From positions 93,674 through 157,673 of the forward strand of contig OMXS01000005.1 in NCBI GenBank assembly GCA_900315095.1: DNA of 64,000 nt. The letters are read 5' to 3'. The translations under genes and the position numbers were made by a program. Shown piece by piece: positions 15,430 through 35,218 of this stretch. The DNA comes from an uncultured Prevotellaceae bacterium (GTDB lineage Bacteria > Bacteroidota > Bacteroidia > Bacteroidales > Bacteroidaceae). The notes under the pieces were generated by a model. It saw only the letters and a program-made list of their open reading frames with translations, was not told the origin of the DNA and searched no databases. The stretch's first letter is position 1. Each line of letters opens with the position of its first letter.

Positions 15430-15821
15430 AAAGTTAATATTTATTTGTATTGTCATCTACATAATTTTTACGCTAGACATGGTAAAGAATGCTAGTGTTA
15501 CTATTACAAGGTTTTGCAAAGTTAAAAGGATTTAACTGATTGTCCAAATATTTTTGGTTAAAATCTTGGGGGTTTAGCCAAAATAAGAGACAAAAACAAA
15601 AAAATGCAACATGAAACAAAAAAACGCATACATAACGACTTCCAATAAAGACGTATTATTACACTTATTCCTTAATGCTACTATTATAAGACTCAGAAAG
15701 TACAATCATTCACATTTCACAACTACAAACATCCGCTAATGTCTGTTGAGAGTAATGAGAACACTTTCCGTACACAGTCATACATTTATGCATGTAACAT
15801 TCAACAAAGTGACTGGCGGCA
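15430..15821. other. Gene-free leader and promoter region of the xus-like operon
   Basis: This 392-nt AT-rich stretch separates the first SusC from the beta-propeller remnant. It holds the operon promoter at 15517-15547 and a leader of about 80 nt. The rest (about 15550-15821) shows no ORF, tRNA or clear hairpin that I can support. No operator can be assigned; the regulator gene for this operon is not in the window. Confidence 0.6.
15517..15547 (-). promoter_or_regulatory. Bacteroidota-type promoter of the xus-like operon
   Basis: On the minus strand the -7 box TAACTTTG (15517-15524) is preceded after exactly 20 nt by TTG (15545-15547). This matches the TTG/TTTG-N19-20-TAnnTTTG consensus. 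Transcription would start near 15511, giving an 80-nt leader before SusC. Confidence 0.75.
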
Positions 15822-16760
15822 TTATTTAAGACGCTCGTCACTCTCAATGCGGCGACTAATCTCACGGGAATCAAGACTGACGGCACGAGAGGTGAAGTCC
15901 GGGGTGTTATAAGAGTACATCAGGCGGCGATAGAATGTCTTGGGGTCGCGCTGTGGCAGCAGGAAAGGTTTGGTGACACGTCCCTTATCGTCAACAGATG
16001 CAAAATAAAGGCGGGTGTAAAGACCATCGTCGCGACGACTGGTAAAGAGGAACCAATGGCTGTTGGCACTCCAGTTGTGGAAACTCTCGGCACGCTTGCT
16101 GTTCACTTCATCGATGCTTCGTGTCTCGCCTGTCCTAAGGTAGAGCATCCACAGGTCGCTCTCCTCATGCCATATAGAGAAGTACCCATAGTTTGCTCGC
16201 GTGTACATTATATATTTACCATCATACGAGGGGCGTGGCCATGTGACGCTCTTTTCCTCCTGTGAGGCACGAACGAGAGTGTCCACAGTCTCGCCTATCT
16301 TACCTGTCTTTTCGTCAAAAGCCACACGGCAGAGGTCATATCGTTCCTTGTCGTAGTCGGTGGGATATACTTGACGCTTGGCTGTAATGAAGTAGAGCCA
16401 CTTGCCGTCGGGCGAGAACACCGGACAGTTCTCAGCCCAATATTTTTTCATTATCAGAGTGTCGCTCAGCGTCTGGTTTGTCTGTGTATCATATACGAAG
16501 ACATCCGATGAGGAGTCGTAAACTTCGATGCGCTTATTGCTCGCCATATGGAACATCTGCGATGTCTTATTTGTGGAGAAGGCGCAGTAACGGCCACCTG
16601 GATGCCAGTAGGGATATACCATCGAACCACCAAGCACTTCGTTCTTCGCCTTCAGAAGCACTTCCTTGCCATCGCGGTGGATTATCGTTGCCCCGTGCTC
16701 GCCACGCGCATGGAACACATACTGGTCGGGATTTGTGCGGTTGAGCCATGGTGCAACCAC
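15822..16760 (-). pseudogene. N-terminally truncated beta-propeller (PD40/TolB-like) remnant
   Basis: This 312-aa frame opens only from a GTG and lacks the signal peptide and about 200 N-terminal residues of its paralogs at 19696 and 22742. Upstream of the GTG the frame reads S-H-A-S-N directly after a TAG. That point aligns with the CxxCH region of the paralogs, so the Cys is gone and the 5' half is missing. The remaining part has the PD40 repeats (YPYWHPGGRY, PVFSPDGKWLYF) and the conserved SVTWPRPSYDGKYIMYT and LFTSRRDDGLYTR motifs, very close to the chimera at 18806. It appears to be a decayed copy of the propeller gene; translation as a cytoplasmic fragment cannot be excluded. Confidence 0.75.
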
Positions 16761-18805: not shown

Positions 18806-19690
18806 TTATTTAGTACTTACACGTTCCTCACTCTCGATTCTCCTGCTCATATCACGGGAATCGAGGTCCAAGGGGCGTGTGGCAAAGTCTGGAGTGTTAT
18901 ACGAATAGAGCAACCGGCGATAATACTGCTTGGGGTTGTGCTGTGGTAATAGGAAAGGCTTGGTGGCCTTACCATTCTCATCCAGGCAGGAGAAGTAGAT
19001 ACGGGTATAGAGACCATCGTCACGGCGACTGGTGAAAAGGAACCAGCGGCTGCCAGTGCTCCAGTTGTGCAGGCTCTCAGTCTGAGGGCTGTTCACGGTG
19101 TCCATAGGACGCGTCTCGCCAGTCTTCATGTCGAGTAGCCACAGGTCAGCCTCGGGATGCCATACCGAGAAATAGCCAAAGTCAGTCTGGGTGTACATGA
19201 TGTAGCGTCCGTCGTAAGAGGGACGGGGCCACGTAACGCTCTTGCCTGTGACAGTAGTATTGATGAGGGTATCAACCTGCTCGCCCAGACGTCCTGTATG
19301 GGCATTAAAGGCGACGCGACAGAGACTGTAACACTCTTTGTCATAGTCGGTGGGATAGAACTGCCGCTTGTCCTTGATATTTGGGAAGAACTGTCGAAGC
19401 AGTTTGGAAGAAAGCTTCTGGGCGAGAACGAAAAGAATGGCATAGGCCAAAGCCCCGTTGACAGGATTCAGGAAAAACTGTGCAATACATTCGCCCAAAT
19501 ACTGAGCCATTCCGCCTGGCAGCACAAGGCGCTCTGTCAGATAGTCGCAGTTCCATAGGAACAATACTGACATCTCCCTTGCCACTGGTATGAATGGATA
19601 GCCGAATAGCCAGAAACAGAACACCACGATGGCCAAAAGAGCCACCGCTACATGTTCCAAGTATCGGAATATGATGGCTTTTATACTCAT
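18806..19690 (-). CDS. Chimeric protein: DUF6057-like membrane N-terminus fused to beta-propeller C-terminus
   Basis: Residues 1 to about 104 match the N-terminus of the DUF6057-like proteins at 21183 and 24264: membrane segments and the LVLPGGMAQYLGECIAQFF motif. From about residue 108 (KRQFYPTDYDKE) the sequence switches in frame to the C-terminal half of the beta-propeller family, nearly the same as the remnant at 15822. The join is near 19365-19380. Everything from the rest of the membrane protein to the CxxCH motif of the propeller is missing. The simplest explanation is a deletion between an adjacent DUF6057-like gene and a propeller gene. The frame is open and starts 5 nt after the preceding gene, so it may still be translated. 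Function is unknown and probably lost. Confidence 0.8.
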   Translation of the reverse strand: MSIKAIIFRYLEHVAVALLAIVVFCFWLFGYPFIPVAREMSVLFLWNCDYLTERLVLPGGMAQYLGECIAQFFLNPVNGALAYAILFVLAQKLSSKLLRQFFPNIKDKRQFYPTDYDKECYSLCRVAFNAHTGRLGEQVDTLINTTVTGKSVTWPRPSYDGRYIMYTQTDFGYFSVWHPEADLWLLDMKTGETRPMDTVNSPQTESLHNWSTGSRWFLFTSRRDDGLYTRIYFSCLDENGKATKPFLLPQHNPKQYYRRLLYSYNTPDFATRPLDLDSRDMSRRIESEERVSTK

Positions 19691-19695
19691 AAGCT

Positions 19696-21186
19696 TTACT
19701 TGCGCACGCCTATGTCCTTGCGGTACTCATCGTTGATGACACTACTAGCCTTATTACCGTCAAAGCGAGTTGGACCAATGATGAAATCGGGCACATTGAA
19801 GGAAAGGAAACGGTCGCGATAGAAACGGCGCGGGTTTCGCTGCGGCAACATAAAAGCTTTGGTAACATTACCCTTGGCATCTATGTGACAAAAATAGGGC
19901 CGTGTGAAGAGACCATCGTCACGTCGTGAGCTGAGCACCATCCAACGTGAGTTCGTGCTCCAGTTGTGGAACGATTCGGTATCTTTAGAGTTAGCCGCAG
20001 TCATGGGACGGCTCTCCCCCGTAGAGAGGTCGAGCAGATAGAGGTCGGCCTCGTGATGCCAAATGCTGAATTGCCCGTAGTCGGAGAGAGTGTAACAGAG
20101 GTAACGCCCGTCGTAGGAGGGACGAGGGAAAGACACCGACTTATGTTGAGCCTCAGCATCGATAATGGTTTCTATACTGTCACCAAAGGTGCCTGTTGCG
20201 GGATCGAAATCGACGCGACAGAGGTTATAGCGTATTGAGTCAAGCTGATGACTGCCCTCAGGCAGAGCGCGTGCTGAACAGAAATAAAGCGAACGACCGT
20301 CAGCCGAGAAAACGGGGAATGTCTCATATATAGAGTCATTTTTGAGAAGGGGCGAGAGCAACAGCTCATTTTTCTCAACGTCATAGACCTGAAGGTCGGA
20401 GGCTGTATCAAAGACCTCGATGCGGTTGTGGTTGGCACTATGGAACAACTGGTTCGTAGTATTTGTAGAATAAGCGATATATCGTCCCGAAGGATGCCAG
20501 TATGGATAGACGCAAAGGCCGAGAGTCTGGTCGGTCTTAGTGTTGTAAGCGGTGACAGGGCCATAGTTTTGGCGCAGCAGCGTGGCACCATGAGGTCCAC
20601 GGATATGAAGACTCATGTCAGCAGGGTTACCACGGTTGAAGCTATGGCAGTTGACACATCCCTCGAACTGGGTGTTCTCAATCAACGGACGCTCATCGAA
20701 TGAGGAGAGGTCGCGTTCATAAATGCCCATCTTACTCCACACCTCGTAACCAGGCTCTATAAGACGATAACAGATGCCGTAGTCAATGCTGTCAGGACTG
20801 ACATATATTGAAAAAGGACGATAGGTGTGCCAGCCGTCGTCATACTTCGCCGAGACAGTAATGCTGAGCGAGCCACCACGGTTCTGCCCGAGCATATCTT
20901 TCCAGTCGTCAATGTCGAAATCGACAGACTCTTTTCCTTGGCTATGCAGGTTGTTTCCGTGACTATCTGTTATGACCGCATCGATACATGAAGCCTTCTC
21001 ATCTGCCATACAGAAGTCGAGAGGAGCAATGTTCACGGGTATAGTGACCCCGATGTAATCGGGATAGATATTAGGCTGAGCCGTCTCTTGCTTGGCATCG
21101 CTGACAGTCTCTGTACAAGCTGCCACGAGGTAAGAGGCAAGGAGCAAGAGGCAAGAGGCAAGAAGTATATGTAGAGTTCTTTTCAT
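19696..21186 (-). CDS. Beta-propeller (PD40/TolB-like) lipoprotein with CxxCH motif, copy B
   Basis: This 496-aa lipoprotein has a signal ending in LVAAC. After an Ig-like N-terminal part (about 40-150) comes CVNCHSF, a CxxCH motif of the c-type haem kind. Beta-propeller repeats follow (YPYWHPSGRYIAYSTN, PVFSADGRSLYF, SFPRPSYDGRYLCYT, LSSRRDDGLFTRPYF). Its ATG overlaps the TGA of the upstream membrane-protein gene by 4 nt (ATGA), so the two are translationally coupled. The hydrophobic core of the signal peptide is encoded by a heptamer repeat. The family occurs next to DUF6057 proteins in Bacteroidota; I know of no established function. Haem binding is inferred only from the motif. Confidence 0.75.
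   Translation of the reverse strand: MKRTLHILLASCLLLLASYLVAACTETVSDAKQETAQPNIYPDYIGVTIPVNIAPLDFCMADEKASCIDAVITDSHGNNLHSQGKESVDFDIDDWKDMLGQNRGGSLSITVSAKYDDGWHTYRPFSIYVSPDSIDYGICYRLIEPGYEVWSKMGIYERDLSSFDERPLIENTQFEGCVNCHSFNRGNPADMSLHIRGPHGATLLRQNYGPVTAYNTKTDQTLGLCVYPYWHPSGRYIAYSTNTTNQLFHSANHNRIEVFDTASDLQVYDVEKNELLLSPLLKNDSIYETFPVFSADGRSLYFCSARALPEGSHQLDSIRYNLCRVDFDPATGTFGDSIETIIDAEAQHKSVSFPRPSYDGRYLCYTLSDYGQFSIWHHEADLYLLDLSTGESRPMTAANSKDTESFHNWSTNSRWMVLSSRRDDGLFTRPYFCHIDAKGNVTKAFMLPQRNPRRFYRDRFLSFNVPDFIIGPTRFDGNKASSVINDEYRKDIGVRK
21127..21165. repeat. GAGGCAA heptamer repeat inside a signal-peptide coding region
   Basis: Heptamers GAGGTAA, GAGGCAA, GGAGCAA, GAGGCAA and GAGGCAA begin at 21127, 21134, 21141, 21148 and 21155, with a partial unit after them. 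On the minus strand they encode LLASCLLLLASY of the propeller lipoprotein signal peptide. Confidence 0.85.
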
Positions 21187-22721
21187 TGCTTGGTGGAAGT
21201 GTTTAATAGTAATTTATTATATCTTTCACGGTCATTTGTCAGTATATAGTAGGCCACCAGATATTGATATGCCAAACTATTGTCTTTGTTGCTGAAGTAA
21301 AGGCTTTCGAGCATATCAGGCGTCACATGGTCGCTGAAAAAAGCATTATCTTTATAGACAGACTTGCGCAGGTGTCCGTATTCGGGATGCTTGGCTATCG
21401 CCTCTTCATTACCCAACAGTTGTAATGTCTCATTCGCCCAGTCACTATAGAAAAGTGTCTTCTGCAGGGCCGTGAGATATTTTCGTGCCACCTCATAATT
21501 GCCGTTTATCAGGTTGGTCTGAGCCAATCGTTTGTAGCATCGTCCACTCTTCTGGAAGTCAAGAATCGCTTCCTGGGCCTCGAACACCGTTCGCTGTGCG
21601 ACATTTATCATACCCAACTGATAGAAGGCCTCGGCAGTAGGCAGAGGACTGGTAGCATCGCTTTGGACATCGGGTAAGAGACCCAAGATGCCGTTCTGGT
21701 TAAATTCAAACAGGTGGTCAGCGAGCAGACCATGCATACCCAAGGCAAGATTCTGCACCGTCACTCCAATCTGATTGTTAGGTTTTTCAGCGTTGATGGT
21801 GGCGAGTATGCGGTTCCATTGCTGGTGGCGCGCCATGAAGTCATATTGCATCACCTTCTCTGCCTTGAGATTGCTGTATTTCCATACAGCACAGAGACCA
21901 CAGAGGAAACAGAGGGCACAGAGTATAAGGGTTTTGAGGTTTTGAGACTTTGATGTTGCTGGTTTATTACAGAAACGGGCAATGAGTGCAAGGACGAAGA
22001 CTGACAGGGCAGCAGACCATAGCAGGACAGGAATCACCGTCGGGTAACGATAGTAATGTATGCCTGTCCATAGACTGCGGGGGGATACAGGAAGATGTGT
22101 TGACAGAATAACTATCATTATTCCCAACAGTACAATCGCTCCATAATACCATATAGAGTATTTATGTCGTGGAATCTGCAAAAGAAAGAACACCACACAT
22201 ACAGGACCCACTATCCAATAGAGTATAGGAACGGCGGCAAAGAGAAGAATGAGCCGCAGCCAGGGGGTTGGATGTTTGGGAGATTGGTCGTCTGGTCGTT
22301 CAGGAACTAGGGCAAAGAGGCATGAGGCGAGAAGAGTGAGCAAGACAGCCCAGACGCCGCCCAACAGCGCATTCTCGTCGAGCAAGAAAAGCCAAAGCAG
22401 AAACGAAGGGATGAAAGAAGCCCCCTCCCAACCTCCCCCCAAGGGGGAGAAGAGCCGCAGGACGAGGAGCTGTATGGCAGAGAGTAGGAGTGCGATGATC
22501 AGAGCGCCCACCCAGGCATAAAGGAAAAACTGCGTGCAGAAGCGTCCCAGCAGGTCGGCAACGCCGCCTGGCAGCCTGACGATGTCCCACACGTATGTGC
22601 TATCGAAAAGGAAAAGCTGATACTGCTCCTGATAATGCAGATGATGCGGATAGGCCAGCCCGAAAAAGAGAAGGACCGCCACACCGAAAAGGAGAGTATA
22701 TATACCACGCAGGTTCTTCAT
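21183..22721 (-). CDS. DUF6057-like polytopic membrane protein, copy B
   Basis: This 512-aa protein has about ten predicted hydrophobic helices in the first 270 residues and a soluble helical, TPR-like C-terminus (about 280-510, with GMINVAQRTVFEAQEAI and LLGNEEAIAKHPEYGHLRKSVY). The start shares the YPHHLHYQEQYQLFLF and RLPGGVADLLGRFCTQFF signature with its paralogs. I assign it to the DUF6057 group from memory of that signature. Four kinds of dispersed repeats are embedded in frame: a 9-bp tandem repeat (21890-21925), stretches near 22263-22336 and a C-rich palindrome (22421-22449). It overlaps the propeller gene downstream by 4 nt. Function unknown; a membrane partner of the propeller lipoprotein is the reasonable guess. 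Confidence 0.75.
   Translation of the reverse strand: MKNLRGIYTLLFGVAVLLFFGLAYPHHLHYQEQYQLFLFDSTYVWDIVRLPGGVADLLGRFCTQFFLYAWVGALIIALLLSAIQLLVLRLFSPLGGGWEGASFIPSFLLWLFLLDENALLGGVWAVLLTLLASCLFALVPERPDDQSPKHPTPWLRLILLFAAVPILYWIVGPVCVVFFLLQIPRHKYSIWYYGAIVLLGIMIVILSTHLPVSPRSLWTGIHYYRYPTVIPVLLWSAALSVFVLALIARFCNKPATSKSQNLKTLILCALCFLCGLCAVWKYSNLKAEKVMQYDFMARHQQWNRILATINAEKPNNQIGVTVQNLALGMHGLLADHLFEFNQNGILGLLPDVQSDATSPLPTAEAFYQLGMINVAQRTVFEAQEAILDFQKSGRCYKRLAQTNLINGNYEVARKYLTALQKTLFYSDWANETLQLLGNEEAIAKHPEYGHLRKSVYKDNAFFSDHVTPDMLESLYFSNKDNSLAYQYLVAYYILTNDRERYNKLLLNTSTKQ
21890..21925. repeat. 9-bp tandem repeat (CACAGAGNN x4) inside a coding region
   Basis: Units CACAGAGAC, CACAGAGGA, AACAGAGGG and CACAGAGTA follow each other without gaps. 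On the minus strand they encode the periodic peptide LCALCFLCGLCA within a membrane helix of the DUF6057-like protein. Confidence 0.85.
22421..22449. repeat. C-rich palindromic dispersed repeat inside a coding region
   Basis: The stretch CCCCCTCCCAACCTCCCC plus CCAAGGGGGAG is the kind of C-rich/G-rich repeat common between genes in Bacteroidota. Related sequence occurs at 27553-27594 and 35.9-36.7 kb. Here it is translated as SPLGGGWEGA in a loop of the membrane protein. Confidence 0.75.
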
Positions 22722-22741
22722 CTCTTAATTCTTAACTATTA

Positions 22742-24256
22742 TTACTTGTCAAATACCTTACTGAATTCATCTACAGTGATCTTGACTGGCTCAACCATGA
22801 ACTCTGGACGGTTGTAACTCTTCAAAAGACTGATATGCAACTCGGGGTCTTCCTGCGGCATGAGGAATGCCTTTTCCACCTTCCCATTGTTGAAATAGGC
22901 GAAATAGACACGGCTGTAGTTGTCATCGTCACGGCGACTGGCAAGCATAATCCAATGTCCGTTGCTCGACCACGAGGGATAACTGTCAGAATAGTCCTTG
23001 CTGTTCAGTCTCGAGAGGTCAATGGGCGAAGAGGTTTCCCAAGTGAGGGCAGTACCGGCATACTTGTCTATAGGGATGCAAACGATGTCGGCATCATGGT
23101 GTCTGCTGTGAAAACAGCCATACTGACCCAGAGCAAACAACAGATAGTGGCCATCGGGGCTGATGCGTGGCAACGTGACGCTCTTATTGGCGGAGGCTGC
23201 ATCATAGACGAGTTCCTCCTCGCCGAAGTTGTGCGTCTTCAGGTCGAACGAACGTCGAACGAGATTATATTGTATCTTTTGATAGGTGGTTCTGATATCT
23301 TTATCGCGCATTTCCTCAGGAAGCGGCACCGACTTGCAGTAATAGAGGTACTTGCCATCGGGCGACCAAGTAGGATACACCTCCAAGAGCGTGGAATCGT
23401 TGCTGACAATGCTTACCGAGTCGGTCTCAACATCATAGAGTATCATATCACTCGCCAAATCATAAACCTCAATTTTGTTAGGATTTGACGTGTGGAATGC
23501 CTGTCGTGTCAGATTGGTAGAGAAGGCTACCAACTTGGCAGTAGGATGCCATGACGGATAGACACCACCGGAAATGGTATAGTCGCGCTTCATATTGACT
23601 TTCGAGACCTTGCCATCGTTCACAATAACGGTACCTGCATTGGATAGACGCACATGAAAGAGCATGTTGTCAGTCTTGTAGTTCTGATAACTGTGGCAGT
23701 TAATGCACTGTCCCTTTTCCCTATCATTCATTGTAATCTCGTTGTTGAAAATCTGTGTTTCCTCAAACGAGATGAGGTTGCGCTGGGCAATCTCCATGAA
23801 GGTCCATGCAACATACGACGGTTCTATGAGACGATACGACACATATTCATCAATAGGCTCTTTAGCAACATGTATCTCAAACGGACTGAACAACAGCCAT
23901 TTGCCTTCTTTCTGGCCCCATACCTCTACCTTGATACTCTTACCCTTCGAGGCATTGAGCATGTCGTGCCATTCATCCTCTTGTATCTGAACCTTCACAC
24001 CGTTGCCGTAGGTCTGCTGCTTGCCATCGGGAGTAGTGAGACGTGCCACGCACTCTTCGTACTGGTCAACTGGGAGCATGAAATTTAGTGGTGCGATGTT
24101 GCAAGGCACGGTGACATCACAATAATCAGGGAAGATTGGTGGCAGCACTGAAGACGCGGAGGCGTCGGAGGGCACAGAGGGATGATTTGCGCACGATGAG
24201 AGGAACATCACGGCAAAGCCCAGCAATACAATGTAGGAGGATATAAATCTTTTCAT
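22742..24256 (-). CDS. Beta-propeller (PD40/TolB-like) lipoprotein with CxxCH motif, copy A
   Basis: This lipoprotein of about 504 aa starts best at 24256 (MKRFISSYIVLLGFAVMFLSSC); two upstream in-frame starts would overlap the preceding gene. The layout matches copy B: an Ig-like N-terminal part, CINCHSY (CxxCH), then propeller blades (YPSWHPTAKLVAFSTN, YPTWSPDGKYLYYC, TLPRISPDGHYLLFAL, LASRRDDDNYSRVYF). It lies 7 nt after the DUF6057-like gene at 24264 and 20 nt before the next one, so it belongs to the same transcript. It is the most diverged of the propeller copies. Function is not established; haem binding is inferred only from the motif. Confidence 0.75.
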   Translation of the reverse strand: MKRFISSYIVLLGFAVMFLSSCANHPSVPSDASASSVLPPIFPDYCDVTVPCNIAPLNFMLPVDQYEECVARLTTPDGKQQTYGNGVKVQIQEDEWHDMLNASKGKSIKVEVWGQKEGKWLLFSPFEIHVAKEPIDEYVSYRLIEPSYVAWTFMEIAQRNLISFEETQIFNNEITMNDREKGQCINCHSYQNYKTDNMLFHVRLSNAGTVIVNDGKVSKVNMKRDYTISGGVYPSWHPTAKLVAFSTNLTRQAFHTSNPNKIEVYDLASDMILYDVETDSVSIVSNDSTLLEVYPTWSPDGKYLYYCKSVPLPEEMRDKDIRTTYQKIQYNLVRRSFDLKTHNFGEEELVYDAASANKSVTLPRISPDGHYLLFALGQYGCFHSRHHDADIVCIPIDKYAGTALTWETSSPIDLSRLNSKDYSDSYPSWSSNGHWIMLASRRDDDNYSRVYFAYFNNGKVEKAFLMPQEDPELHISLLKSYNRPEFMVEPVKITVDEFSKVFDK

Positions 24257-24263
24257 TGTTTTC

Positions 24264-26075
24264 TTACGATTGAACTTCATGACCAATATTTCCATTATTT
24301 ATAATATAAGACTTTCTTCCGAAAATGTTGTACCACCAATAGGTATCTCCATATTCTTTACGCATCTCTTCACCAACCGATTTAAGTGTCATACCAGGTA
24401 TTGCATAGGTTTTCAAGGTTGCCCAAAACTGTTTGTAACGCTCATAAACAGACCGTTCGACAGGGAGCATCATACGTTTCTCTTCTGGAGCCTTGTCCAT
24501 GTACAGAATATAGGCCTCCATGGCATGCAGAGGAAATTGCTCATCAAGATGCAACTTCACATAATTGCGTAGGGATGGCCAGAAGCGACGGGAGTCGCAA
24601 CGTATCATGGAATAGAACAAAGCCTGTTCTGAAGCCAACTTGCTGTCAGATTCGTACCAGAGACTAATACTGTTGACAATATAACTATCGCTGTTCTCAA
24701 CGCCACTGAGCTCATCAGGATAGCATTTCTGCAGTTCCTTAACCTTTGCTGAGACCGGTGCCGGTTGCCAATTTCCGTAAAACGGACGATGATGCAGTAT
24801 GGTGGTATAGCGTTCTACCAATTTCTTATCTCCTGTAGCCAAGGCACATCTGGTAAGCATCTTCAAGTAGAAGGGCGAGAAACCCGCCTGTATGGCGTTC
24901 TCAAAACTCAGGCGGATGGATTCATTCACCATGCCGTAATTATAATATACCAGAGGCGATGCTATGTCCAAAAGGGTGACGTGGAGCGTATCTGGATTGT
25001 TAATATTTACATCATCGTTGCCCAACTTGAATGAACGGTCGAGTAAACCACCTTCATTCATCAGTGCAATATTCTTAAGAAATACCATCGTGCTGGTTGG
25101 TTTCTTGTTCTCTTCAGACATACGAAGAACCTCCTTCCAGTTGTCGTCGTAAGCATAGCGTACCATGCGCATTTCGTTAATGTAATTACGATCGTAGTAC
25201 ATGAGCGACCAGGTAAAGACAATACCTGCAAAGACACATAGGACCGGCACAAGTATACTTTGAACTTTGAACTTTAAACTTTGAACTTTAGTTGGCAGAT
25301 ATTTGCTAAACAACGCAAAGAGCAAAGAAGCGCCACCAAGCACCCAAAACGGGACTGAAAGACGTCCAGTACTGTCGCTTGGCGTTTCAAAACGAGGCAG
25401 TCCTGCCAGCATGACATCATCGAATTTCAGGTTCGAATATAACTGGGTATGCCAGATGCTGGCGGTAAAGACAAGCAAGACAATGCCTATAAGTTCGCGC
25501 CACGTCAGTTTCTCGGCAACCACCAGACAAAGCATGAAAAGCAAGGCGAACCATCCTAATATTGGATAGATGCAAAAGCCCAGCACATACCATAATAGAT
25601 GCCATTTGCGTGAAGTACTTCGTGCTGCCCATAAAAGCAAAAGCATGACGAGATAGCCTACCGACTGAGAGAACCAATAGCCTCTAATCGTGGATATATA
25701 AATCCAATATCCCAAATCAACAACCGATGTAAGCAGACAGGCGATTGGCAGGAGCATCAGTGCAGAAGTACTCGCCTGTAACCTGAAAGCCTTGGTTCCC
25801 ACATAGAATATGAGGGTCCAAATAACTATCATTACACTAGCACCTAACAACGGCCTATAGCATAGTTGTGTGAGCCATGCTCCCACGTACTGCATCAGAC
25901 CGAAGGGCTTCGACATAAGGGTATGGAAGAATGGCGCTCCAAAGATGAACTCGGAACGGTCGTGTGCCGTATAAAACACCTCCCGATTAATATATAGTAT
26001 ATATACCGCAAATGCTATGAAAGCCAGCAGGCTCACATAGAGAATGATCTTAGATACTTTGTTGTTATTAATCAT
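24264..26075 (-). CDS. DUF6057-like polytopic membrane protein, copy A
   Basis: The start is taken at the ATG at 26075 (MINNNKVSKIILYVSLLAF), which leaves 19 nt after the ATPase gene; the longer frame would overlap it. The 603-aa protein has about ten to twelve hydrophobic helices up to residue 320 and then a soluble helical C-terminus with TPR-like spacing, ending near YWWYNIFGRKSY. The signature KPFGLMQYVGAWLTQLCY corresponds to PGGVADLLGRFCTQFF in copy B. A TTTGAAC heptamer array is embedded at 25258-25290 and translated as KVQSLKFKVQS between two helices. It is followed 7 nt later by its propeller partner. Function unknown. Confidence 0.75.
   Translation of the reverse strand: MINNNKVSKIILYVSLLAFIAFAVYILYINREVFYTAHDRSEFIFGAPFFHTLMSKPFGLMQYVGAWLTQLCYRPLLGASVMIVIWTLIFYVGTKAFRLQASTSALMLLPIACLLTSVVDLGYWIYISTIRGYWFSQSVGYLVMLLLLWAARSTSRKWHLLWYVLGFCIYPILGWFALLFMLCLVVAEKLTWRELIGIVLLVFTASIWHTQLYSNLKFDDVMLAGLPRFETPSDSTGRLSVPFWVLGGASLLFALFSKYLPTKVQSLKFKVQSILVPVLCVFAGIVFTWSLMYYDRNYINEMRMVRYAYDDNWKEVLRMSEENKKPTSTMVFLKNIALMNEGGLLDRSFKLGNDDVNINNPDTLHVTLLDIASPLVYYNYGMVNESIRLSFENAIQAGFSPFYLKMLTRCALATGDKKLVERYTTILHHRPFYGNWQPAPVSAKVKELQKCYPDELSGVENSDSYIVNSISLWYESDSKLASEQALFYSMIRCDSRRFWPSLRNYVKLHLDEQFPLHAMEAYILYMDKAPEEKRMMLPVERSVYERYKQFWATLKTYAIPGMTLKSVGEEMRKEYGDTYWWYNIFGRKSYIINNGNIGHEVQS
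25258..25290. repeat. TTTGAAC heptamer repeat inside a coding region
   Basis: Units TTTGAAC, TTTGAAC, TTTAAAC and TTTGAAC begin at 25259, 25266, 25273 and 25280. It is the same heptamer as the intergenic array at 5337-5374, read on the other strand. Confidence 0.9.
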
Positions 26076-26094: not shown

Positions 26095-27225
26095 CTATAT
26101 AAATCTTTTCCTAAACCACAATGCAAAAACAGGATCCGTAACATTGAGTTGGCGTAGTTCTGAATATATCAGATCGCGTTCAATAAGTGCTTTACGCAAG
26201 CGTACAATGTTTGAAGGAGCCCCCAAATCGAACTGAGAGCGGACACGTTTTTCATTAAACCCAGAGTGTACACCAGAAACGATAGCCCTAAGCATATTCA
26301 TCTGATAACTGGACAATGGCTCTATCTGTTGCATATACAGAGCCTCATTAGTACTTATCAATTCTGCCACTGCCTGCGGCATCATATCTTCAGTTACGGT
26401 ACCGCCTTGAGGCAGAAGGTTGAGAAGTATTGAAGAGAGGTGCTGTACGTACGACGGATAGTTATCTACAGTCTCGCATATCCGCGCTACCATTTGCTCA
26501 GAAATATGCTTACCTGCCGCCTCAAAATGACTTATGATATAGTCAATCCAATCGTTAGTTGGTATTTTCTGTAACCAAAGCAAGTCACCAAACTGATAGA
26601 AAGGCATACTGCGATTCAGAAATATATCACTCATCATATGCCGTTTACTGCCATACAAGCAATACGATGTGTAGTGATGGTGTTGCCAAACCGAACGAAG
26701 TCTGGCCTGGACTTCCTTTGTATTCTCAAATTCACCTATTTGCTGAAACTCATCTATGCATACCACAACATGGCGTTTCTTCTTTTGGGCAATGATTTCT
26801 ACAACATTAAGAATCTCCTCTGGAGAATGCGTTTCAGGAGTTATGCCTAAAGAAACACTAATTTCAGACATAGGGTCAACAGGAATACCAATTTTGGGAG
26901 TAAGACGAGCCAGAAAGCTGCGAGCTTCATCCATCCATAGCTGAATCTTAGATGCTGTTTGCTTCAACACAGCCACGGCCAAGGCGTTATAAAATTCATA
27001 TTCCGACTTGCATCCAAATATATCCAAGCGTACCGTAATAACATCACTACTGGCCAGTTGTTGACAAACATGGTCAACCAACGATGTTTTCCCCCATCGT
27101 CTAGGAGAAATCAATATAGAATTAACTCCGCCTTCGAAGTTGGCTTTCAGACGACGTGTTTCCTCAATTCTACCAGTAAAATTGTAGTCTGTGACAGCTA
27201 TTCCATATACAAAACTTTTCTCCAT
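26095..27225 (-). CDS. AAA/STAND-type ATPase (archaeal-type ATPase family)
   Basis: This 376-aa cytoplasmic protein has a Walker A motif SPRRWGKTSL near residue 40 and a Walker B motif VVVCIDEFQQ near residue 155. A YGSKRH sensor-like stretch follows, then a C-terminal winged-helix-like region (QFDLGAPSNIVRLRKALIERDLI) and a terminal DPVFALWFRKRF. This is the pattern of the archaeal-type ATPase family (PF01637) found widely in Bacteroidota, whose roles are mostly unknown. It is the first gene after a good promoter and is followed 19 nt later by the DUF6057-like gene, so it may share that operon. Confidence 0.75.
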   Translation of the reverse strand: MEKSFVYGIAVTDYNFTGRIEETRRLKANFEGGVNSILISPRRWGKTSLVDHVCQQLASSDVITVRLDIFGCKSEYEFYNALAVAVLKQTASKIQLWMDEARSFLARLTPKIGIPVDPMSEISVSLGITPETHSPEEILNVVEIIAQKKKRHVVVCIDEFQQIGEFENTKEVQARLRSVWQHHHYTSYCLYGSKRHMMSDIFLNRSMPFYQFGDLLWLQKIPTNDWIDYIISHFEAAGKHISEQMVARICETVDNYPSYVQHLSSILLNLLPQGGTVTEDMMPQAVAELISTNEALYMQQIEPLSSYQMNMLRAIVSGVHSGFNEKRVRSQFDLGAPSNIVRLRKALIERDLIYSELRQLNVTDPVFALWFRKRFI

Positions 27226-27677: not shown

Positions 27678-28916
27678 TCATTTCGCTACAGGTCTGATAG
27701 AAACTCCGAAACTGGTACTCAGGTTGTTGTAGATGTCCAGAGAATTATACAGACCATTCTGGAAGATTAACATATTTGGCATGTTTTCATTTCCATTAAT
27801 AGCACCTTCTGAGCCATTAACCTGGTCTGCCATCGATGGGAAATGGTATGTACCGGTAATCTCTCCAGTAGCATAATAGCCTGAATTTCCATTACCAAAC
27901 AACTTATTCCCGTATCGATAACCTGCAGCCGGGAAGAATATACTATTTCCATTAGGACCAGTTACTCTATATCCAGAACCAACAAATTCCCATTCACACT
28001 CTTCAAGCAACTCTACGAATTCTATGGTTGTTGGCATTCTCCAGTTGCTGCCCCAGTTTGCAGTAGCAGGATCATGAGTAGCATCTGATACAATGCTATA
28101 AGCAGGAACGAAGGTTAAGTTATTCTTCTTCTTTGCGTCAAGTCTATCTTTCGGAGCATTTCCAATATCACCACCAGCGTAGTCCTTACGCATCACGGTA
28201 CCAAACTGATCTTTGATTTCAGTATAATTATTGGCTAAAGGAGACTCATAGAAATTGACATCTGTAGAATTAATCTGAGTAATGGTAAGAGTAGTTACCT
28301 TCTCGTAATCAAACGCCTGGAAAGCATCGTCACCTGGCAATCTCTCAACAAACTCAGAACCATCCCAATCTATGACACCCTCAAACTCATCATTGATAAG
28401 TGTTGCCTCAAGGAAACCTGAATAAGACGATTTGAGTTCATCCAATTTGTCCTTCATGAACGAAACAATCTTGTCCTTTTTCTGATTATCACTTACACTC
28501 GATAAGTCTATAAGCTTAGGCTGAGAGGTTGTAACGATATTTGTCGTGTCGCATATCGTTCCTGTCTTCTCATCACCTTTGTACAGATTAAACAAATCAG
28601 ATACCGGTGTAAGACTTGTAACATCTGTATATGTCGCATCATTGTTTGCCATAACCTGTGTACCTGTTATGTCACCCCATACGAAGAGGATACCATTGTC
28701 TGTTTCCGAAGTCGCACCAACATTCATGTTAGCCCACTTGGTACCACTTGGGAGCCCCAAATCTACAGCCTGACCAGCATTTTTTATATTGCTTGTGTTC
28801 GCTGTATATTGAGTATCTACAGTATTTTCGGTAATCTCCTCACTACAAGCCACAAACATACTTGATAAAATAAGCGTGGAGATTGCGAACTTACTAAAAT
28901 TCATTAAATTTTTCAT
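27678..28916 (-). CDS. FISUMP-domain lipoprotein
   Basis: This 412-aa lipoprotein has a lipobox at MFVACSE. It opens with AVDLGLPSGTKWANMNVGA, the hallmark of the Fibrobacter succinogenes major paralogous (FISUMP) domain. It ends with the paired NWRMPT..EF.ELLEECEW and GPNGNSIFFPAAGYR motifs of that domain. Between them lies an unusual insert of roughly 150 residues (about 115-265), which breaks the domain in two. It is the last gene of the second SusC/D operon, so a surface glycan-binding or adhesion role is plausible. The actual ligand is unknown. Confidence 0.8.
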   Translation of the reverse strand: MKNLMNFSKFAISTLILSSMFVACSEEITENTVDTQYTANTSNIKNAGQAVDLGLPSGTKWANMNVGATSETDNGILFVWGDITGTQVMANNDATYTDVTSLTPVSDLFNLYKGDEKTGTICDTTNIVTTSQPKLIDLSSVSDNQKKDKIVSFMKDKLDELKSSYSGFLEATLINDEFEGVIDWDGSEFVERLPGDDAFQAFDYEKVTTLTITQINSTDVNFYESPLANNYTEIKDQFGTVMRKDYAGGDIGNAPKDRLDAKKKNNLTFVPAYSIVSDATHDPATANWGSNWRMPTTIEFVELLEECEWEFVGSGYRVTGPNGNSIFFPAAGYRYGNKLFGNGNSGYYATGEITGTYHFPSMADQVNGSEGAINGNENMPNMLIFQNGLYNSLDIYNNLSTSFGVSIRPVAK

Positions 28917-28954: not shown

Positions 28955-30058
28955 TTATTCCTCATAGTAAACAGCTTTGAGAGTCATAGAGCCACTATAC
29001 AGCATGAGGTCAAGGTCACGGCCTTCACCGCCCTTAGCACACTCATCAGCCATGGTCTGGGTAATCTGAAGTTCATTCAAACCATCTATCCACTTAACAT
29101 GGTCGTAATAGGTGTTACTCCACCAACCATTCATAACCTTCAGATCAAAATTATCTGTAACATCTGATACGTCGAAGATCAGAGTCTTCAGACCGAAGTA
29201 AACCTCATCAGGAATAGTGGGCAGATGTGCACCTTCGGTAGAACTGAAACGCATAGCTGCAGCATCCCAAGCACCAGGCTTGAATGGCAGTTGTGGATCT
29301 TCTGCTTTTTCATCTTCTGACCTATTAGGATCACCATAGATATAGTACTTAATAAGCGGATTACTGATTTCTTCACACTCTACAGGGTATTTAACAGTAA
29401 GCACAGTACCGTCAGCACAAAGAGCGGTGAGAACAACTGTGTACGGAGTAGAAACATAATCACCATTCTCATCCCACTTAAGTTTCATCTTCTTCGATGC
29501 ATAGTTGCCGACAAACTCCTTATCACCGACATACCACTTTGCATTGACAGGAGCAGAGGTTTGACAGGTAATAACATTACCGAACTTACCATCTATGCCA
29601 GGAGCCGTCTTAGCACCATAGGTTTTGAAAATGCCTTTGGTGATGATACTGCTAACTTGGTTGGGGTTTTTGGTTTGCCTTATAACGATTTTTGGCAGGA
29701 TACCGTCAACCGCCTTGTCGCCAATTACACTCCTATAGACTGAAACATTTTTTGGAATACTCTCAAAGCTTTCGCCATTCAAGGATATCTCCCAATAATC
29801 ATCAGGAATGGGATCTGCAAAGTAAATGACAATACCCTCGCAGTCTTTTACGTCAACATTCTCCATCAAGACCGTTTCTTGATTAGCCTTAATGGTTTGC
29901 TGCCGTTCAATCTGGATTACTTTGTCAACAACTACAGTAGACATTGCCTTGAGCTCGTCAGCAGTGATGTGACCGCCATTGCCGATATCCTCATGAACAG
30001 GATCACAAGCAGCAAAAGCGCATACTGTGACAACAAGCAAAAATAATATCTTTTTCAT
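28955..30058 (-). CDS. Surface glycan-binding-protein-like lipoprotein of the second PUL
   Basis: This 367-aa lipoprotein has its lipobox at AFAAC. I do not recognise a named family. The predicted content is beta-rich, with an Ig-like middle part (about 150-230, NVITCQTSAPVNAKWYVGDKEF) and a C-terminal part with aromatic residues (NGWWSNTYYDHVKWIDG). Its place directly after SusD is typical of SusE/SGBP proteins, which bind the polysaccharide next to the transporter. Function is inferred from context. Confidence 0.65.
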   Translation of the reverse strand: MKKILFLLVVTVCAFAACDPVHEDIGNGGHITADELKAMSTVVVDKVIQIERQQTIKANQETVLMENVDVKDCEGIVIYFADPIPDDYWEISLNGESFESIPKNVSVYRSVIGDKAVDGILPKIVIRQTKNPNQVSSIITKGIFKTYGAKTAPGIDGKFGNVITCQTSAPVNAKWYVGDKEFVGNYASKKMKLKWDENGDYVSTPYTVVLTALCADGTVLTVKYPVECEEISNPLIKYYIYGDPNRSEDEKAEDPQLPFKPGAWDAAAMRFSSTEGAHLPTIPDEVYFGLKTLIFDVSDVTDNFDLKVMNGWWSNTYYDHVKWIDGLNELQITQTMADECAKGGEGRDLDLMLYSGSMTLKAVYYEE

Positions 30059-30077: not shown

Positions 30078-31967
30078 TTAATAAAGAACTTTATATTGTG
30101 TCTCTTGATCAGCTAAATCCCATCCTGGGTTCTGCTCCATCTTACCATTCATCAGAGTAATCTGTGCCTGAGGCTTAGGCAAGAAACCGTTGGTAGCAGC
30201 GTAACGCTTAGCCCAAGAACAGGTCATGTGAGCCATATTCATAGAATTCTTTTTGCCCCTAACAGTAATAACCTTACCACTTTGAGCCTGAAGAGCCTTC
30301 GCGGCGTATGAACTCTCACCAGAGTCTATACCAGACCAACGACGCATATCGTTGAAGCGAAGACCCTCTAATGCAAACTCCCAACGACGCTCGTTCTGAA
30401 CATTCTTCAAAGAGTAAGGTGTCTGAGGCACACCTGCACGCTTTTGAACCTGGTTCATATACTGGGCATCACCTGTGACTTCGGTGAGCATCAGCAGCAC
30501 GTCAGCATAACGCATCAGGTAGAAGTCCTCGAAGTGGTCACCTTGCTGCTTGTTGTCAAGTGAACTGGATGAATAGCCCTCTGTCTTTGACCACCAAGAA
30601 TCGTTGTCAGCAGCGCAAGCATCGAGGTTAACATCAGCGTACTTCTTAACTGCATAGCCTGACTCCTCGCAGTCGTCCTTCTCGTAAGTATAGGAAGCAA
30701 GCTCATTATCAAGGTCAATCAAAGAACCGAGTTTACGGATGTCAGTATAACTACCGGCAGTCTCTGCAGCTGTCCAATCATCCCAGAGATTGCGTGAAGG
30801 AGTACCCTGACCCCAACCCTGGTTGAATGGATAAGTCTTGTCGCGCTTACCATTGTCATTGGTTGCGCCATTACGAAGACCCCAGAAACAAGACAGGTAG
30901 TTAGAATACATACGTGGGTTGTTGTATGTACCACCAATGGCCCACTTAGAAGCATTCATGAACTGAATCTGGAAGATTTCCTCAGTGTTACCATTACCCA
31001 TGCCAGGCATGTCGAAACAGTTGCTACGGTCCATATCTGCGATGAAATCATAGGAATGGCCCTTGCCATCGTGTGCCTCATCCCAGAGAAGGCTGTTAGA
31101 ATACTGCCAGAGTGAACGGTAGTCCGGGCAAAGCTTGTAACCGCCATTGTTAACAATATCCTTAAGAGCAGCTATGACATCAGCCTTTGCGAGAGTACCT
31201 CCAGGGCAACCCTCCTGCTCCACGAGTTCAATAGTAGCATCGCCAGTAGCGAGTTCACCAACCTTCTTATAGAAGCCTGCCCAGAACATCCATGCACGTG
31301 CGATAAATGCCTCGGCAGCGAACTTGTCAGCATGTCCGGAACCATTAGCCCTTTCTGGCTTCATGAGATTCTTTGCAGAAACAAAGTCAGAGATAATCTG
31401 TGGATAAATAAACTCCTCAGCACTTACCTGCTGCTGCATATCATCAGTAATAACAGTAGAGGTAATCAAAGGTACATCGCCGTACAACTGTGAGAGCCAC
31501 ATATAGTAGAGACCACGCATGAAGTAGCCCTCGCCGAGCAACTGATTGCGCTGAACGGTATTGTTTGTCCAATCAACATTATCGATGGTCTCAATCTGGT
31601 TGTTGGCGCGTGAAATACCACCATAGAGAAGGATGAAGTCCTGTTCATACTGGTTGGCACTTGCCGTTGTAAAATGATGGAGTGACTTAGCCACATTGTC
31701 CTGCAAACCACCACTGCCGTAGCAGTCGTCTGACATAAGTGACCACCAATAGAAAGGATTATTTAATATACCACTTTGGTCACCACCACCCAGCGTATTC
31801 ATGATACTGTAGGTAGCAGCATTCAATGCCTCAACATCTGCAGGTTTACCTGGGAATGTAGCCGCAGTCAACTCTGTAACACGCGGATCGGTGTCCAGAC
31901 TGTCGTTACAGGCTGTGAATATAGTAGCTGTCAAAACAACTACTGCAGATAAAATATATTTCTTCAT
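30078..31967 (-). CDS. SusD-like nutrient-binding outer-membrane lipoprotein (second PUL)
   Basis: This 629-aa RagB/SusD-family protein has a lipoprotein signal with lipobox IFTAC. It has the DTDPRVTELTA start, the TPR-like N-terminal helices, and the C-terminal NVQNERRWEFALEGLRFNDMRRW motif. It starts 14 nt after the SusC stop codon and acts as the lid of that transporter. Confidence 0.93.
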   Translation of the reverse strand: MKKYILSAVVVLTATIFTACNDSLDTDPRVTELTAATFPGKPADVEALNAATYSIMNTLGGGDQSGILNNPFYWWSLMSDDCYGSGGLQDNVAKSLHHFTTASANQYEQDFILLYGGISRANNQIETIDNVDWTNNTVQRNQLLGEGYFMRGLYYMWLSQLYGDVPLITSTVITDDMQQQVSAEEFIYPQIISDFVSAKNLMKPERANGSGHADKFAAEAFIARAWMFWAGFYKKVGELATGDATIELVEQEGCPGGTLAKADVIAALKDIVNNGGYKLCPDYRSLWQYSNSLLWDEAHDGKGHSYDFIADMDRSNCFDMPGMGNGNTEEIFQIQFMNASKWAIGGTYNNPRMYSNYLSCFWGLRNGATNDNGKRDKTYPFNQGWGQGTPSRNLWDDWTAAETAGSYTDIRKLGSLIDLDNELASYTYEKDDCEESGYAVKKYADVNLDACAADNDSWWSKTEGYSSSSLDNKQQGDHFEDFYLMRYADVLLMLTEVTGDAQYMNQVQKRAGVPQTPYSLKNVQNERRWEFALEGLRFNDMRRWSGIDSGESSYAAKALQAQSGKVITVRGKKNSMNMAHMTCSWAKRYAATNGFLPKPQAQITLMNGKMEQNPGWDLADQETQYKVLY

Positions 31968-31981
31968 AACTTATTGTCGAA

Positions 31982-34900
31982 TTAGAATTTAATACTTGCA
32001 CCAATCAAATATGTACGAGATGGTGGGTAAAGACCCAAGTCAATACCAGAAGCCCAACCTGAACCACCAGCAGTGTTACCAACCTCAGGATCAAGACCAG
32101 AGTAACCAGTGAAGGTGACGAGATTCTGAGCCTGAACATAGAGACGGAGTTGCTGGAATGGACAGTTCTTCCATACATTCTTGAAGTCGTAACCGAGAGT
32201 AACGGTCTTGATCTTGAAGTAGTCAGCATTCTCCATATAACGGGTAGATACCCAGTTTACGTTCTCACTACCTGTACTTGTAATATGTGGCTGGGCGTTT
32301 GAAGAACCTTCACCAACCCAACGCTCCAGAATAGAGGTATCATAGTTCTGATAAGGAGCATCACTGAATGAACGGTAAGAACGCATAATCTGCTGACCAA
32401 ATGCACCAGCACCGTTTATAGCAAAGTCGAAGCCCTTCCATGTACAACCGAGGTTGATACCGAGCATAATGTCTGGGTTAGGATTACCAATCTCATGGCG
32501 GTCGCAATTGTCACCTTCTGCGAAAGTGATTACTCCATCACCATTCCAGTCATCCCAGATCATATCACCAGGCTGTGCACCGTCAAGAACAGCCTTGCCA
32601 GCAGCACGTGCATCATCAATCTGATCCTGATTCTGCCAGATACCGCTGTAAGACATTCCATAGAAGTAACCGATAGGCTTGCCTTCCTCAGCACGGTAGA
32701 TGTAATCTGTACCCTGTGAGAGGACGCCAGAAGGACCATTGATATAGTGGTTGTCATTAGCGATACGAGTAACCTTGTTCTTGTTGGTAGCAAAGTTAAC
32801 ACCTACGTTATATCTGAAGTCGCTACCAATTCTATCGTTCCAAGTAAGAGCAAGCTCAACACCTGTATTCTGAACGTCACCACCATTGATGGCTGCAGGG
32901 TTGGTACCATTGATGGCAATCTGTGGACCTGTAATCAGCCAGTCTTTAGTCATCTTCTTATACCAGTCGAAGTTTACACCCAAACGGTTGTCGAGCAAAC
33001 GAGCGTCAAAACCGAAGTCAAGCTGCTCTGATGTCTCCCAAGTAAGGTCAGGATTAGGTACGATGTTAGCGTAAGCACCAACATTTGGAGAACCTGCAAC
33101 AGAAGTTGCCAAGTCAGAACCAAACTTGTATCCACTGTCGCCAGAGTCGCCTGACAGAGCGATTGTAGCCAGATACTGGTACTTGCTGATAGCGCAGTTA
33201 CCGTTCTGACCCCAAGATGCACGGAGTTTGAAGAAGTCCAACCAGCTCTTTGTACTCTCCATGAAAGGCTCATTGCTGATTACCCAACCAGCAGATACTG
33301 ATGGGAACCAACCCCAGCGCTTGCCATCGGTAAAGATACTTGAACCATCATAACGTAAAGTAGCAGTTGCCATATAGGTCTCATTGTAGTCCCAACTTAC
33401 ACGGCCGAACCAAGAAGCGAGATACTCTTCATCATTCGGATTACCGGTGAGAGTCATGTCTGTAGCATTTACTAGTTTAATATTTGACAGCCATGCTGAA
33501 TCCCAACCCTTAAGAGTTGCGAGTTGCTCACCCCAGTTAACCTTATTAGATCCACCAACGTTAAAGCTCCAAGCAGTGCTCTGGAAAGACTGACCTACCA
33601 TTGCGCTGATCTTATGACCATTGATGATTGGTAAATCATAAGTAAGAGTGTTCTCAATAGACCAATTAGTATTCAACCAAGCACTCTGATTAACACTATA
33701 AATAACAGATGTAGCATTTCCATAACCAGAAGAACGTGGCTCATTGTAGTTGCGATATGCGCCAGAACCCCAGTTGTAGTTGAACTGTGAACGGAGTCTC
33801 AGACCCCTGATAGGCTGAATAACTGCGAAAACAGTTGCGCTGGTATTGATGCTGCGGCTCTCTGCCTTAGAGTTGAAGCCACCCTTAGAAAGGTTCTCCC
33901 ATGGGTTGCTGAACAAAGAAGAGTTCCAGCCCTGACCATAAGTAACGTTACCGTTGAAATCCTGATATGCGTAGTTATCGCCATTATAAGCGTACTGTGG
34001 AACGAATGGACAAGTCTGGAGCAAGCTGTGGATATAACTCCAATACATACCGTCCTCAGCCAAGTCGTGACTCTTGGTGTAACCAATAGAGATATTCTCA
34101 CCGATGGTGATAGCGTCGAAGTCCTTAACTCTCAAAAGCACATGATCGCTGTTGATGCGGACTGTATGGCGCTTGTAGTAAGATGCCATTTCAGCACCCA
34201 TGATACCTTCGTTACCAGTATAGGTGTAAGACATCGCGAACTTAGAACGGTCTGAACCACCAGTCAATGTTACAGAATGGTTGTTCTGCAAAGCGTTCTT
34301 GTTTTCGAATGCACCCCACCAATCAGTACCAGTCCAACCACTGTTAACCTTGGTAAGAATGTCCTGTGGAACAAAGCCGGCCCAATCCATCTTCTGACCT
34401 GAGGTATTGAAGGTGTACTCATCAATAATAGTCATGTACTGCTGAGCGTTGAGCACTTGTGGACGCTTGTAAGCGTTAGACCAACCGATAGCACCGTTGT
34501 AGCTGAGCTCGATCTTACCAGCCTTACCCTGCTTTGTGGTAACGAGGATAACGCCGTTTGCAGCACGGGCACCATAGATGGCAGCCGAAGCAGCATCCTT
34601 GAGGACGTCGATGCTCTCGATATCGTTAGGGTTAATTCCGTCAAGGCTTCCACCAGCCACACCGTCGATAACGTAAAGAGGAGAAGCCGAACCAGTGGTA
34701 CCGATACCACGGATGTAAACCTTGTATCCCTTACCTGGCTGTGTAGATGACTGTGTGATCTGTACACCTGGGGTGCTTGACTGCATAGCCTCAAGTGCGT
34801 TTGTTGTGTTCAGTTTGGCGATGTCCTCACCCTTTACCTGAACAGTAGCACCAGTCACCAGTTTTTTCTTCATTGTACCGTAACCGATGACAACCACGTC

Positions 34901-35218
34901 GTTCAGAGTAGTGTTGTCCTCAGCCATCGTTACATTGATGGTGCTTCTTCCACCTACGTTAACCTCCTGTGGTACATAACCAACATAGGAGAAACTTAGA
35001 GTAGCGTTAGAGGCTGCCTTTACGCTGTAATTTCCTTCGAAATCGGTAATGGCGCCCTCATTGCTTCCCTGTACTTTGACTGTCGCACCAATTACTGGTT
35101 CGCCAGCCTCATCAGTCACTGTTCCGCGTACAACGCTCTGAGCGGCTATTCCCAATGGGAACAGACACAGCAAAAACAGCGACATCAAGAAAGTTTTTAA
35201 AGGTCTTGAATTACTCAT
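31982..35218 (-). CDS. SusC-like TonB-dependent transporter (second PUL)
   Basis: This full-length SusC-family protein (1078 aa) has a signal peptide ending GIAAQ. The CarboxypepD_reg domain (about 30-105, GTVTDEAGEPVIGATV) is followed by DVVVIGYGT, a plug with PLYVIDGVAGGSLDGI and GARAANGVILVTTKQG, and a barrel ending in YLIGASIKF. It heads the second leftward operon: SusC, SusD, SGBP-like and FISUMP. No glycosidase is co-directional right behind it, so the enzyme genes at 38-53 kb may serve this transporter. Confidence 0.93.
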   Translation of the reverse strand: MSNSRPLKTFLMSLFLLCLFPLGIAAQSVVRGTVTDEAGEPVIGATVKVQGSNEGAITDFEGNYSVKAASNATLSFSYVGYVPQEVNVGGRSTINVTMAEDNTTLNDVVVIGYGTMKKKLVTGATVQVKGEDIAKLNTTNALEAMQSSTPGVQITQSSTQPGKGYKVYIRGIGTTGSASPLYVIDGVAGGSLDGINPNDIESIDVLKDAASAAIYGARAANGVILVTTKQGKAGKIELSYNGAIGWSNAYKRPQVLNAQQYMTIIDEYTFNTSGQKMDWAGFVPQDILTKVNSGWTGTDWWGAFENKNALQNNHSVTLTGGSDRSKFAMSYTYTGNEGIMGAEMASYYKRHTVRINSDHVLLRVKDFDAITIGENISIGYTKSHDLAEDGMYWSYIHSLLQTCPFVPQYAYNGDNYAYQDFNGNVTYGQGWNSSLFSNPWENLSKGGFNSKAESRSINTSATVFAVIQPIRGLRLRSQFNYNWGSGAYRNYNEPRSSGYGNATSVIYSVNQSAWLNTNWSIENTLTYDLPIINGHKISAMVGQSFQSTAWSFNVGGSNKVNWGEQLATLKGWDSAWLSNIKLVNATDMTLTGNPNDEEYLASWFGRVSWDYNETYMATATLRYDGSSIFTDGKRWGWFPSVSAGWVISNEPFMESTKSWLDFFKLRASWGQNGNCAISKYQYLATIALSGDSGDSGYKFGSDLATSVAGSPNVGAYANIVPNPDLTWETSEQLDFGFDARLLDNRLGVNFDWYKKMTKDWLITGPQIAINGTNPAAINGGDVQNTGVELALTWNDRIGSDFRYNVGVNFATNKNKVTRIANDNHYINGPSGVLSQGTDYIYRAEEGKPIGYFYGMSYSGIWQNQDQIDDARAAGKAVLDGAQPGDMIWDDWNGDGVITFAEGDNCDRHEIGNPNPDIMLGINLGCTWKGFDFAINGAGAFGQQIMRSYRSFSDAPYQNYDTSILERWVGEGSSNAQPHITSTGSENVNWVSTRYMENADYFKIKTVTLGYDFKNVWKNCPFQQLRLYVQAQNLVTFTGYSGLDPEVGNTAGGSGWASGIDLGLYPPSRTYLIGASIKF

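Follow-up and report, generated by a model that had tools for sequence, protein, structure and literature searches.

In the 64,000-nucleotide (nt) stretch analysed here (the window; contig OMXS01000005.1 of assembly GCA_900315095.1, an uncultured Prevotellaceae bacterium), two intact copies of a two-gene module lie next to each other on the reverse strand. Each copy encodes a DUF6057 protein (PF19529, hereafter D) and a propeller lipoprotein with a CxNCH motif and PD40 repeats (hereafter P). In pair A, D (24264..26075, 603 amino acids (aa)) was identified by Pfam and by direct reading of the sequence and has a predicted GT-C-like membrane half followed by a TPR half; P (22742..24256, 504 aa) carries the motif as CINCH at 23693..23707. 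Pair B consists of D (21183..22721, 512 aa, Pfam and fold model) and P (19696..21186, 496 aa, fold model), the latter with CVNCH at 20644..20658 (residues 177-181). As the preliminary description of this DNA had it, the two genes are separated by 7 nt in pair A and share an ATGA overlap in pair B, the overlap being read directly in the sequence. The E-values for DUF6057 in Pfam are 2.1e-141 (pair B), 3.8e-68 (pair A) and 7.8e-20 for residues 11-103 of the damaged open reading frame (ORF) 18806-19690; the three matches score 473, 231 and 71.7 bits, all above the PF19529 cut-off of 29.8 bits. PD40 lies above its Pfam cut-off in both intact propellers and in ORF 15822-16760. The D of pair B was considered as a truncated protein, being about 75 residues shorter at the C-terminus, but the short form recurs in relatives (L067-L074) and represents a short-tailed subfamily.

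Pairing and copy number

D and P form an obligate, multi-copy, one-to-one pair that co-evolves and keeps a conserved company of genes. The comparison covers 80 loci from named genomes, taken as the best matches to the query propeller profile, a sample in which about 33 loci are closely orthologous to that of the window. All 143 full-length P in these loci contain CxxCH (four P fragments were left out of the count), and 131 of them have a D match directly upstream, defined as -400 to 600 nt between stop-to-stop frames on the same strand. Likewise, P follows downstream of 132 of the 139 D matches longer than 350 aa. On reading the 12 P that fail the upstream rule, five have frames that overlap their own D (L077, L107, L108, L109, L131), two lie at the end of the locus (L105, L149), three are separated from D by an intervening gene (L102, L118, L128) and two have no adjoining D as far as the locus is readable (L103, L112). 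The gap is at most 30 nt in 112 of 116 neighbouring full-length pairs. For these 116 pairs, with full-length D only, the D and P trees correlate with r 0.962; shuffling the partners within loci gave a mean r of 0.167 and a maximum of 0.46. In the 42 loci with at least two pairs the right partner was kept in 88 of 88 tests.

In a sample of 251 genomes from the family of the window's bacterium, D exceeds the Pfam cut-off in 223 and P is found at E 1e-20 in 189. Across a phylum-wide sample of 296 genomes, D is above the cut-off in three, namely the window's own and two outside the class; in the latter two (L210, L211) D is paired with a P that carries CMNCH. The preliminary description had proposed a two-part system. 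A neighbourhood check set beforehand found CxxCH and the pairing to be general among homologues, and together with the tree correlation this speaks for the proposal. It is, however, incomplete, since SusC/SusD, a chorismatase-like protein and CcsBA are also linked to the pair, and a solo DUF6057 protein without a propeller exists (L021).

Two damaged copies accompany the intact pairs on the same strand. In the ORF at 18806..19690, recognized by Pfam and by its relatives, about 103 residues of the D N-terminus are followed in frame by P from about residue 300-320 on, i.e. the last third of P, and CxNCH is lost. The counterparts of the fused pieces in L152 and L153 are two separate open genes with 67-76% identity and a D-side of 417 aa. 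By this sequence comparison, the ORF arose from a third pair by an in-frame deletion that fused its two genes. The ORF at 15822..16760, recognized by PD40, is the C-terminal part of a fourth propeller and begins just past CxNCH. Gene coordinates and translations agree with the two intact pairs and two damaged copies first described. Between the damaged copies an esterase-like protein (PHB depolymerase-type match, Big_7) is encoded on the opposite strand (16927-18720, +).

Beyond the window, the source genome holds three further full pairs (two in L019, one in L020). Repeated duplication of the module, correctly pointed out at the outset, is ordinary in this family, several genomes of which have four to seven propeller matches listed. 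Records of named relatives come mostly from the rumen and gut, and metagenome-assembled genomes of rumen Prevotella stand closest among them (best P identity 88%). The solo DUF6057 protein of the source genome (7676-8833 in L021, 385 aa) has a shortened membrane part; its gene directly follows one that, from reading alone, is branching-enzyme-like. Several relatives that lack P give weak double matches to DUF6057, which suggests that this solo branch is common.

Predicted architecture of the two proteins

The fold model of D from pair B suggests a GT-C-like fold for the first, membrane half of the protein, followed by a TPR half. In 90 of 90 full-length D the first outer loop carries an acid (D/E at position 32 or 33), and E32 was aligned to the E of the 'DE' in PMT_2. 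The match of D to the O-mannosyltransferase profile is weak, with an hhalign probability of 36 for the whole protein and 16 for the membrane half (comparison sets: 30 PMT_2 proteins, some of them below the Pfam cut-off, 20 TMEM260-like proteins and four MFS proteins as control). TMEM260-like proteins were considered as the nearest relatives of D, which was not supported (2.5% in hhalign). No GT-C Pfam family occurs among the matches listed (25 of 56) for 90 D members; fold lists without a given family were not counted as absence of that family. The best match of DUF6057 to a solved structure by sequence is a TPR-type subunit (E 0.009).

The TPR-like C-terminus noted earlier is right, and the TPR half may be the constant part of D. 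Sixteen of the 131 partners are shorter than 450 aa; some of these are cut by a contig end, and nine are TPR-only (L107-L110, L113, L115, L116, L119, L150; 346-356 aa). The latter match the D profile only from about 286-305 to 591, as seen from the coordinates of eight and the E-value of the ninth. Three of them start with a lipoprotein-like signal and six with one basic-ended hydrophobic stretch. Either start would place the TPR domain outside the cytoplasm, in agreement with the loop charges of full-length D. In most TPR-only loci a full-length D is also nearby. P and its TPR-only partner lie next to a GH5-BACON enzyme in six loci (L107-L110, L115, L116).

In the model, P has a beta-rich domain at its N-terminus and a TolB-like propeller with six blades, and it is probably periplasmic. 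Its CxxCH motif, already reported for both propellers, is general in relatives and present in 93 of 93 aligned members. Residues 141-150, with the invariant R141 and P145, are modelled with the lowest certainty (mean predicted local distance difference test (pLDDT) 72), which could reflect a missing ligand, or not. Both P of the window remain below the NCBIfam TolB cut-off (TIGR02800; 33.6 and 27.1 versus 343 bits). Matches to Magnetochrome and Paired_CXXCH were found in 3/93 and 4/93 members, with best E-values of 0.027 and 0.082, and were taken as chance.

P is associated with cytochrome c maturation. Over the 251 family genomes, CcsA (PF01578) is found in 176 genomes with P and in 46 without, and is missing from 13 with P and 16 without. 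When CcsB pieces are added, the genomes with P divide into 179 with and 10 without; this second search covered all 13 genomes with P lacking CcsA and, from the 16 lacking both, left out G310, G312, G322 and G402. At a completeness of at least 90%, cytochrome c maturation occurs in 104 of 105 genomes with P versus 35 of 47 without. Within genera the association of P and CcsA has p 0.002 to 0.004. One genome without P (G238) is counted as CcsA-positive on a weak match. From the motif and this genome association we infer a haem on P.

Gene company of the pair

A chorismatase-like protein, assigned to the FkbO/Hyg5 family by Pfam, is a recurrent companion. Its gene is present in 14 of the 80 loci; 13 have it in the same run as P, and in one case a single gene separates it from D. 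It also adjoins the pair in L210 and L211, the two loci from outside the class, and in L212. Among the 251 genomes, 175 have P and the chorismatase-like gene, 14 only P, 12 only the chorismatase-like gene and 50 neither; hence the gene occurs in 175/189 genomes with P versus 12/62 others. Within nine genera, 82 co-occurrences were observed and 67.9 expected. The R-x-W, A-x-TGI, SGTASI and CR...L-x-E motifs are kept in all 15 chorismatase-like proteins, as are C371 and E378 near the C-terminus. Four members score below the TIGR04444 cut-off of 325 bits (141.5, 154.2, 151.6 and 51.4). One member was aligned to Hyg5 (5ag3, E 3e-27), and the alignment ends in the DVCR..LLVEIE stretch containing the late Cys and Glu. 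The role of Hyg5 Glu-334 and of the subfamily Cys in chorismatases is described in PMC7170507. The chorismatase-like match of the source genome is close to the end of a contig; it contains one stop codon, with an open frame of 340 aa.

The chorismatase-like gene is in turn linked to CcsA. Among the matches listed for genomes with both (taken from 150 chorismatase-like and about 150 CcsA entries), it lies within 4 kb of a CcsA match in 54 of 93 cases. In eight stretches picked for this neighbourhood (L219-L226, e.g. L222 1493-10511) it stands next to CcsBA in all eight, and a protein with two CxxCH motifs is encoded in seven. Pfam identifies a porin, an imelysin and the di-haem protein DHOR in L222 and an imelysin in L223. 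A protein of about 235-246 aa with one CxxCH was seen in L219, L221, L222 and L225.

Upstream of the pairs in the window, on the same strand, lie genes for a SusC, a SusD and a lipoprotein-like protein that the preliminary description did not include. SusC, a TonB-dependent transporter (31982..35218; nearest solved structures by sequence 8aa4 and 5t3r), falls in a well-supported clade of transporters beside the pair. It is followed by a SusD-like lipoprotein (30078..31967), identified by sequence matches, and by two lipoprotein-like proteins without an NCBIfam match: 'w367' (28955..30058), which lies between SusD and the pairs and has related genes in 28/80 loci, and the optional 'w412' (27678..28916, 412 aa), with related genes in 7/80. 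SusC matches occur in 52 and SusD matches in 53 of the 80 loci; in the fetched stretches of the pairs outside the class (L210, L211), phmmer gave no match to either.

The SusC tree contains 36 of 47 SusC, 11 window-type near-copies having been left out, and all come from genomes with P. A clade of 18 rows with support 100/100 corresponds to SusC near D-P, 14 of them labelled by script and four by gene order (L088, L113, L119, L150). Outside this clade lie the labelled L146 and L153, as well as SusC that follow P or a P remnant (L076, L081, L084, L096 and 12244-15456 in the window). The D-P label changes 5 times on the tree compared with 12.1 times when shuffled, and none of 500 shuffles was as low, a number to which near-copies contribute. 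Among 69 further downstream genes from both locus types, Pfam finds glycoside hydrolase (GH) family GH43 eight times, GH3 six, esterase four, SASA esterase three and GH26 two; genes nearer to the pair include GH5-BACON (6/69) and GH130 (3/69), and also GH26, an epimerase and a sugar transporter. By our reading of these genes the D-P loci are xylan- and mannan-type.

An AAA ATPase of unclear family (26095..27225, -) lies 19 nt upstream of pair A and had been counted as an operon partner. As a third component it was rejected, because tblastn gave no match at E 1e-3 in 135 loci (L019-L021, L024-L155), many of which have short flanks; the gene is incidental and perhaps a recent arrival. A TlpA-like thioredoxin partner was likewise considered, but the recurrent neighbour of about 200 aa shows DUF4369 alone.

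Possible function and relation to known systems

We tentatively propose that P is a haem-bearing lipoprotein held by the periplasmic TPR domain of D, usually joined to a GT-C-type membrane enzyme, and that the unit acts in SusC/SusD-dependent hemicellulose uptake. The D-P unit would span the inner membrane and the periplasm. Full-length D would reside in the inner membrane with its TPR domain in the periplasm, and one branch would be TPR-only on a lipid or single-helix anchor. The invariant CxNCH motif of P would most likely carry one covalent haem, attached by CcsBA. Where present, the GT-C half may be a transferase that uses a lipid-linked donor at the periplasmic face, and the haem-bearing P could couple this reaction, or the acceptor presented, to a redox or haem state. 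The D-P unit of Bacteroidales would serve the SusC/SusD transporter clade of xylan- and mannan-type loci. The chorismatase-like enzyme and CcsBA would be its functional partners, whether their genes adjoin the pair or lie at other sites of the genome. An undescribed envelope system of this kind, in which a haem c propeller lipoprotein has a permanent periplasmic TPR partner, usually fused to a GT-C enzyme, is supported by these two enzymes and acts in Bacteroidales as a redox- or haem-dependent accessory of hemicellulose uptake by SusC/SusD, is a possibility to which we give limited credence.

Two results weigh against parts of this proposal. The modelled CxNCH lies within a beta-strand (177-184), in a model with pLDDT 95, which argues against an ordinary haem c. 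Furthermore, some P do without the membrane half of D, which makes a transferase function less probable. The position of the motif leads to an alternative that keeps the pair and that we rank as equal to, and thus just as tentative as, a haem: CxNCH would then not bind haem; its Cys, Asn and His, on the presumed inner strand of blade 2, could instead bind a metal or act in catalysis, comparable to propeller enzymes whose channel holds a metal, and D would anchor or feed this enzyme. Conserved His residues elsewhere in P (H231 98%, H377 96%, H407 85%) are consistent with such a site, and Foldseek matches include metal propellers at low TM-score, namely oligogalacturonate lyase (3pe7, 0.31) and thiocyanate dehydrogenase (6g5m, 0.38). 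The strictness of CxxCH in every full-length P and the genome-wide link to CcsA/CcsBA and the chorismatase-like gene are, however, what is expected of a c-type haem protein.

TPR and propeller architectures are also combined in the BamD (TPR) and BamB (propeller) pair. By analogy, D-P could be an assembly or handling factor for SusC/SusD or a periplasmic glycan, with the GT-C-like half as a mere anchor. The TPR-only partners, in which this half is dispensable, and the SusC beside the pair, mostly from one clade, would suit such a role. We nevertheless consider it unlikely, since the pairs outside the class come without a SusC/SusD match in their fetched stretches, the invariant loop acid of full-length D would not be expected in an anchor and CxxCH is left unexplained. 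Less probable still is that D-P works as a TMTC/TMEM260-like glycosyltransferase pair in the periplasm, in which D would O-glycosylate envelope proteins, P would be acceptor or chaperone and the link to haem would be indirect. The GT-C-like fold with TPR and the tight partner specificity point in this direction, whereas the missing sequence link to TMEM260-like proteins, the partners without a GT-C half and the unexplained CxxCH, CcsBA and chorismatase-like links point away from it.

In the open-licence literature we found no paper on DUF6057, nor on PD40 with CxxCH or cytochrome c in a Bacteroid/SusD context. The D-P system is new in the sense that no described system of this composition was found there, and an envelope pair that co-evolves and is present in 189/251 family genomes has no function in that literature. 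The surrounding loci resemble known SusC/SusD loci in their SusC-SusD pair and in GH3, GH43, GH26, GH130 and GH5 among the neighbours; they differ by D-P, for which no described role was found and which outside the class stands without a SusC/SusD match in the fetched stretches. If P does bind haem, the loci with which these bacteria take up plant sugars would include a c-type haem protein, and glycan foraging would be linked to the maturation of cytochromes. P differs from TolB as a lipoprotein with CxNCH that misses the TIGR02800 cut-off, and from the hydrazine synthase alpha subunit (5c2v) in that the latter serves another reaction in other organisms. The partner gene is like FkbO/Hyg5 chorismatases in its motifs (15/15) and differs in its score (51 to 154 bits versus the cut-off of 325).

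TMTC1-4 and TMEM260 combine a GT-C domain with TPR. D resembles these proteins, the protein O-mannosyltransferases and other GT-C enzymes in its predicted GT-C-like membrane half, whose first outer loop bears an acid, and in its TPR second half. It differs from GT-C enzymes in that a firm sequence match is lacking (best hhalign probability 36), the lipoprotein partner is dedicated and one branch misses the membrane half. D-P would be less novel if D were an ordinary protein glycosyltransferase; if the GT-C assignment holds, a transferase with a fixed lipoprotein partner would be added to the envelope biology of Bacteroidota.
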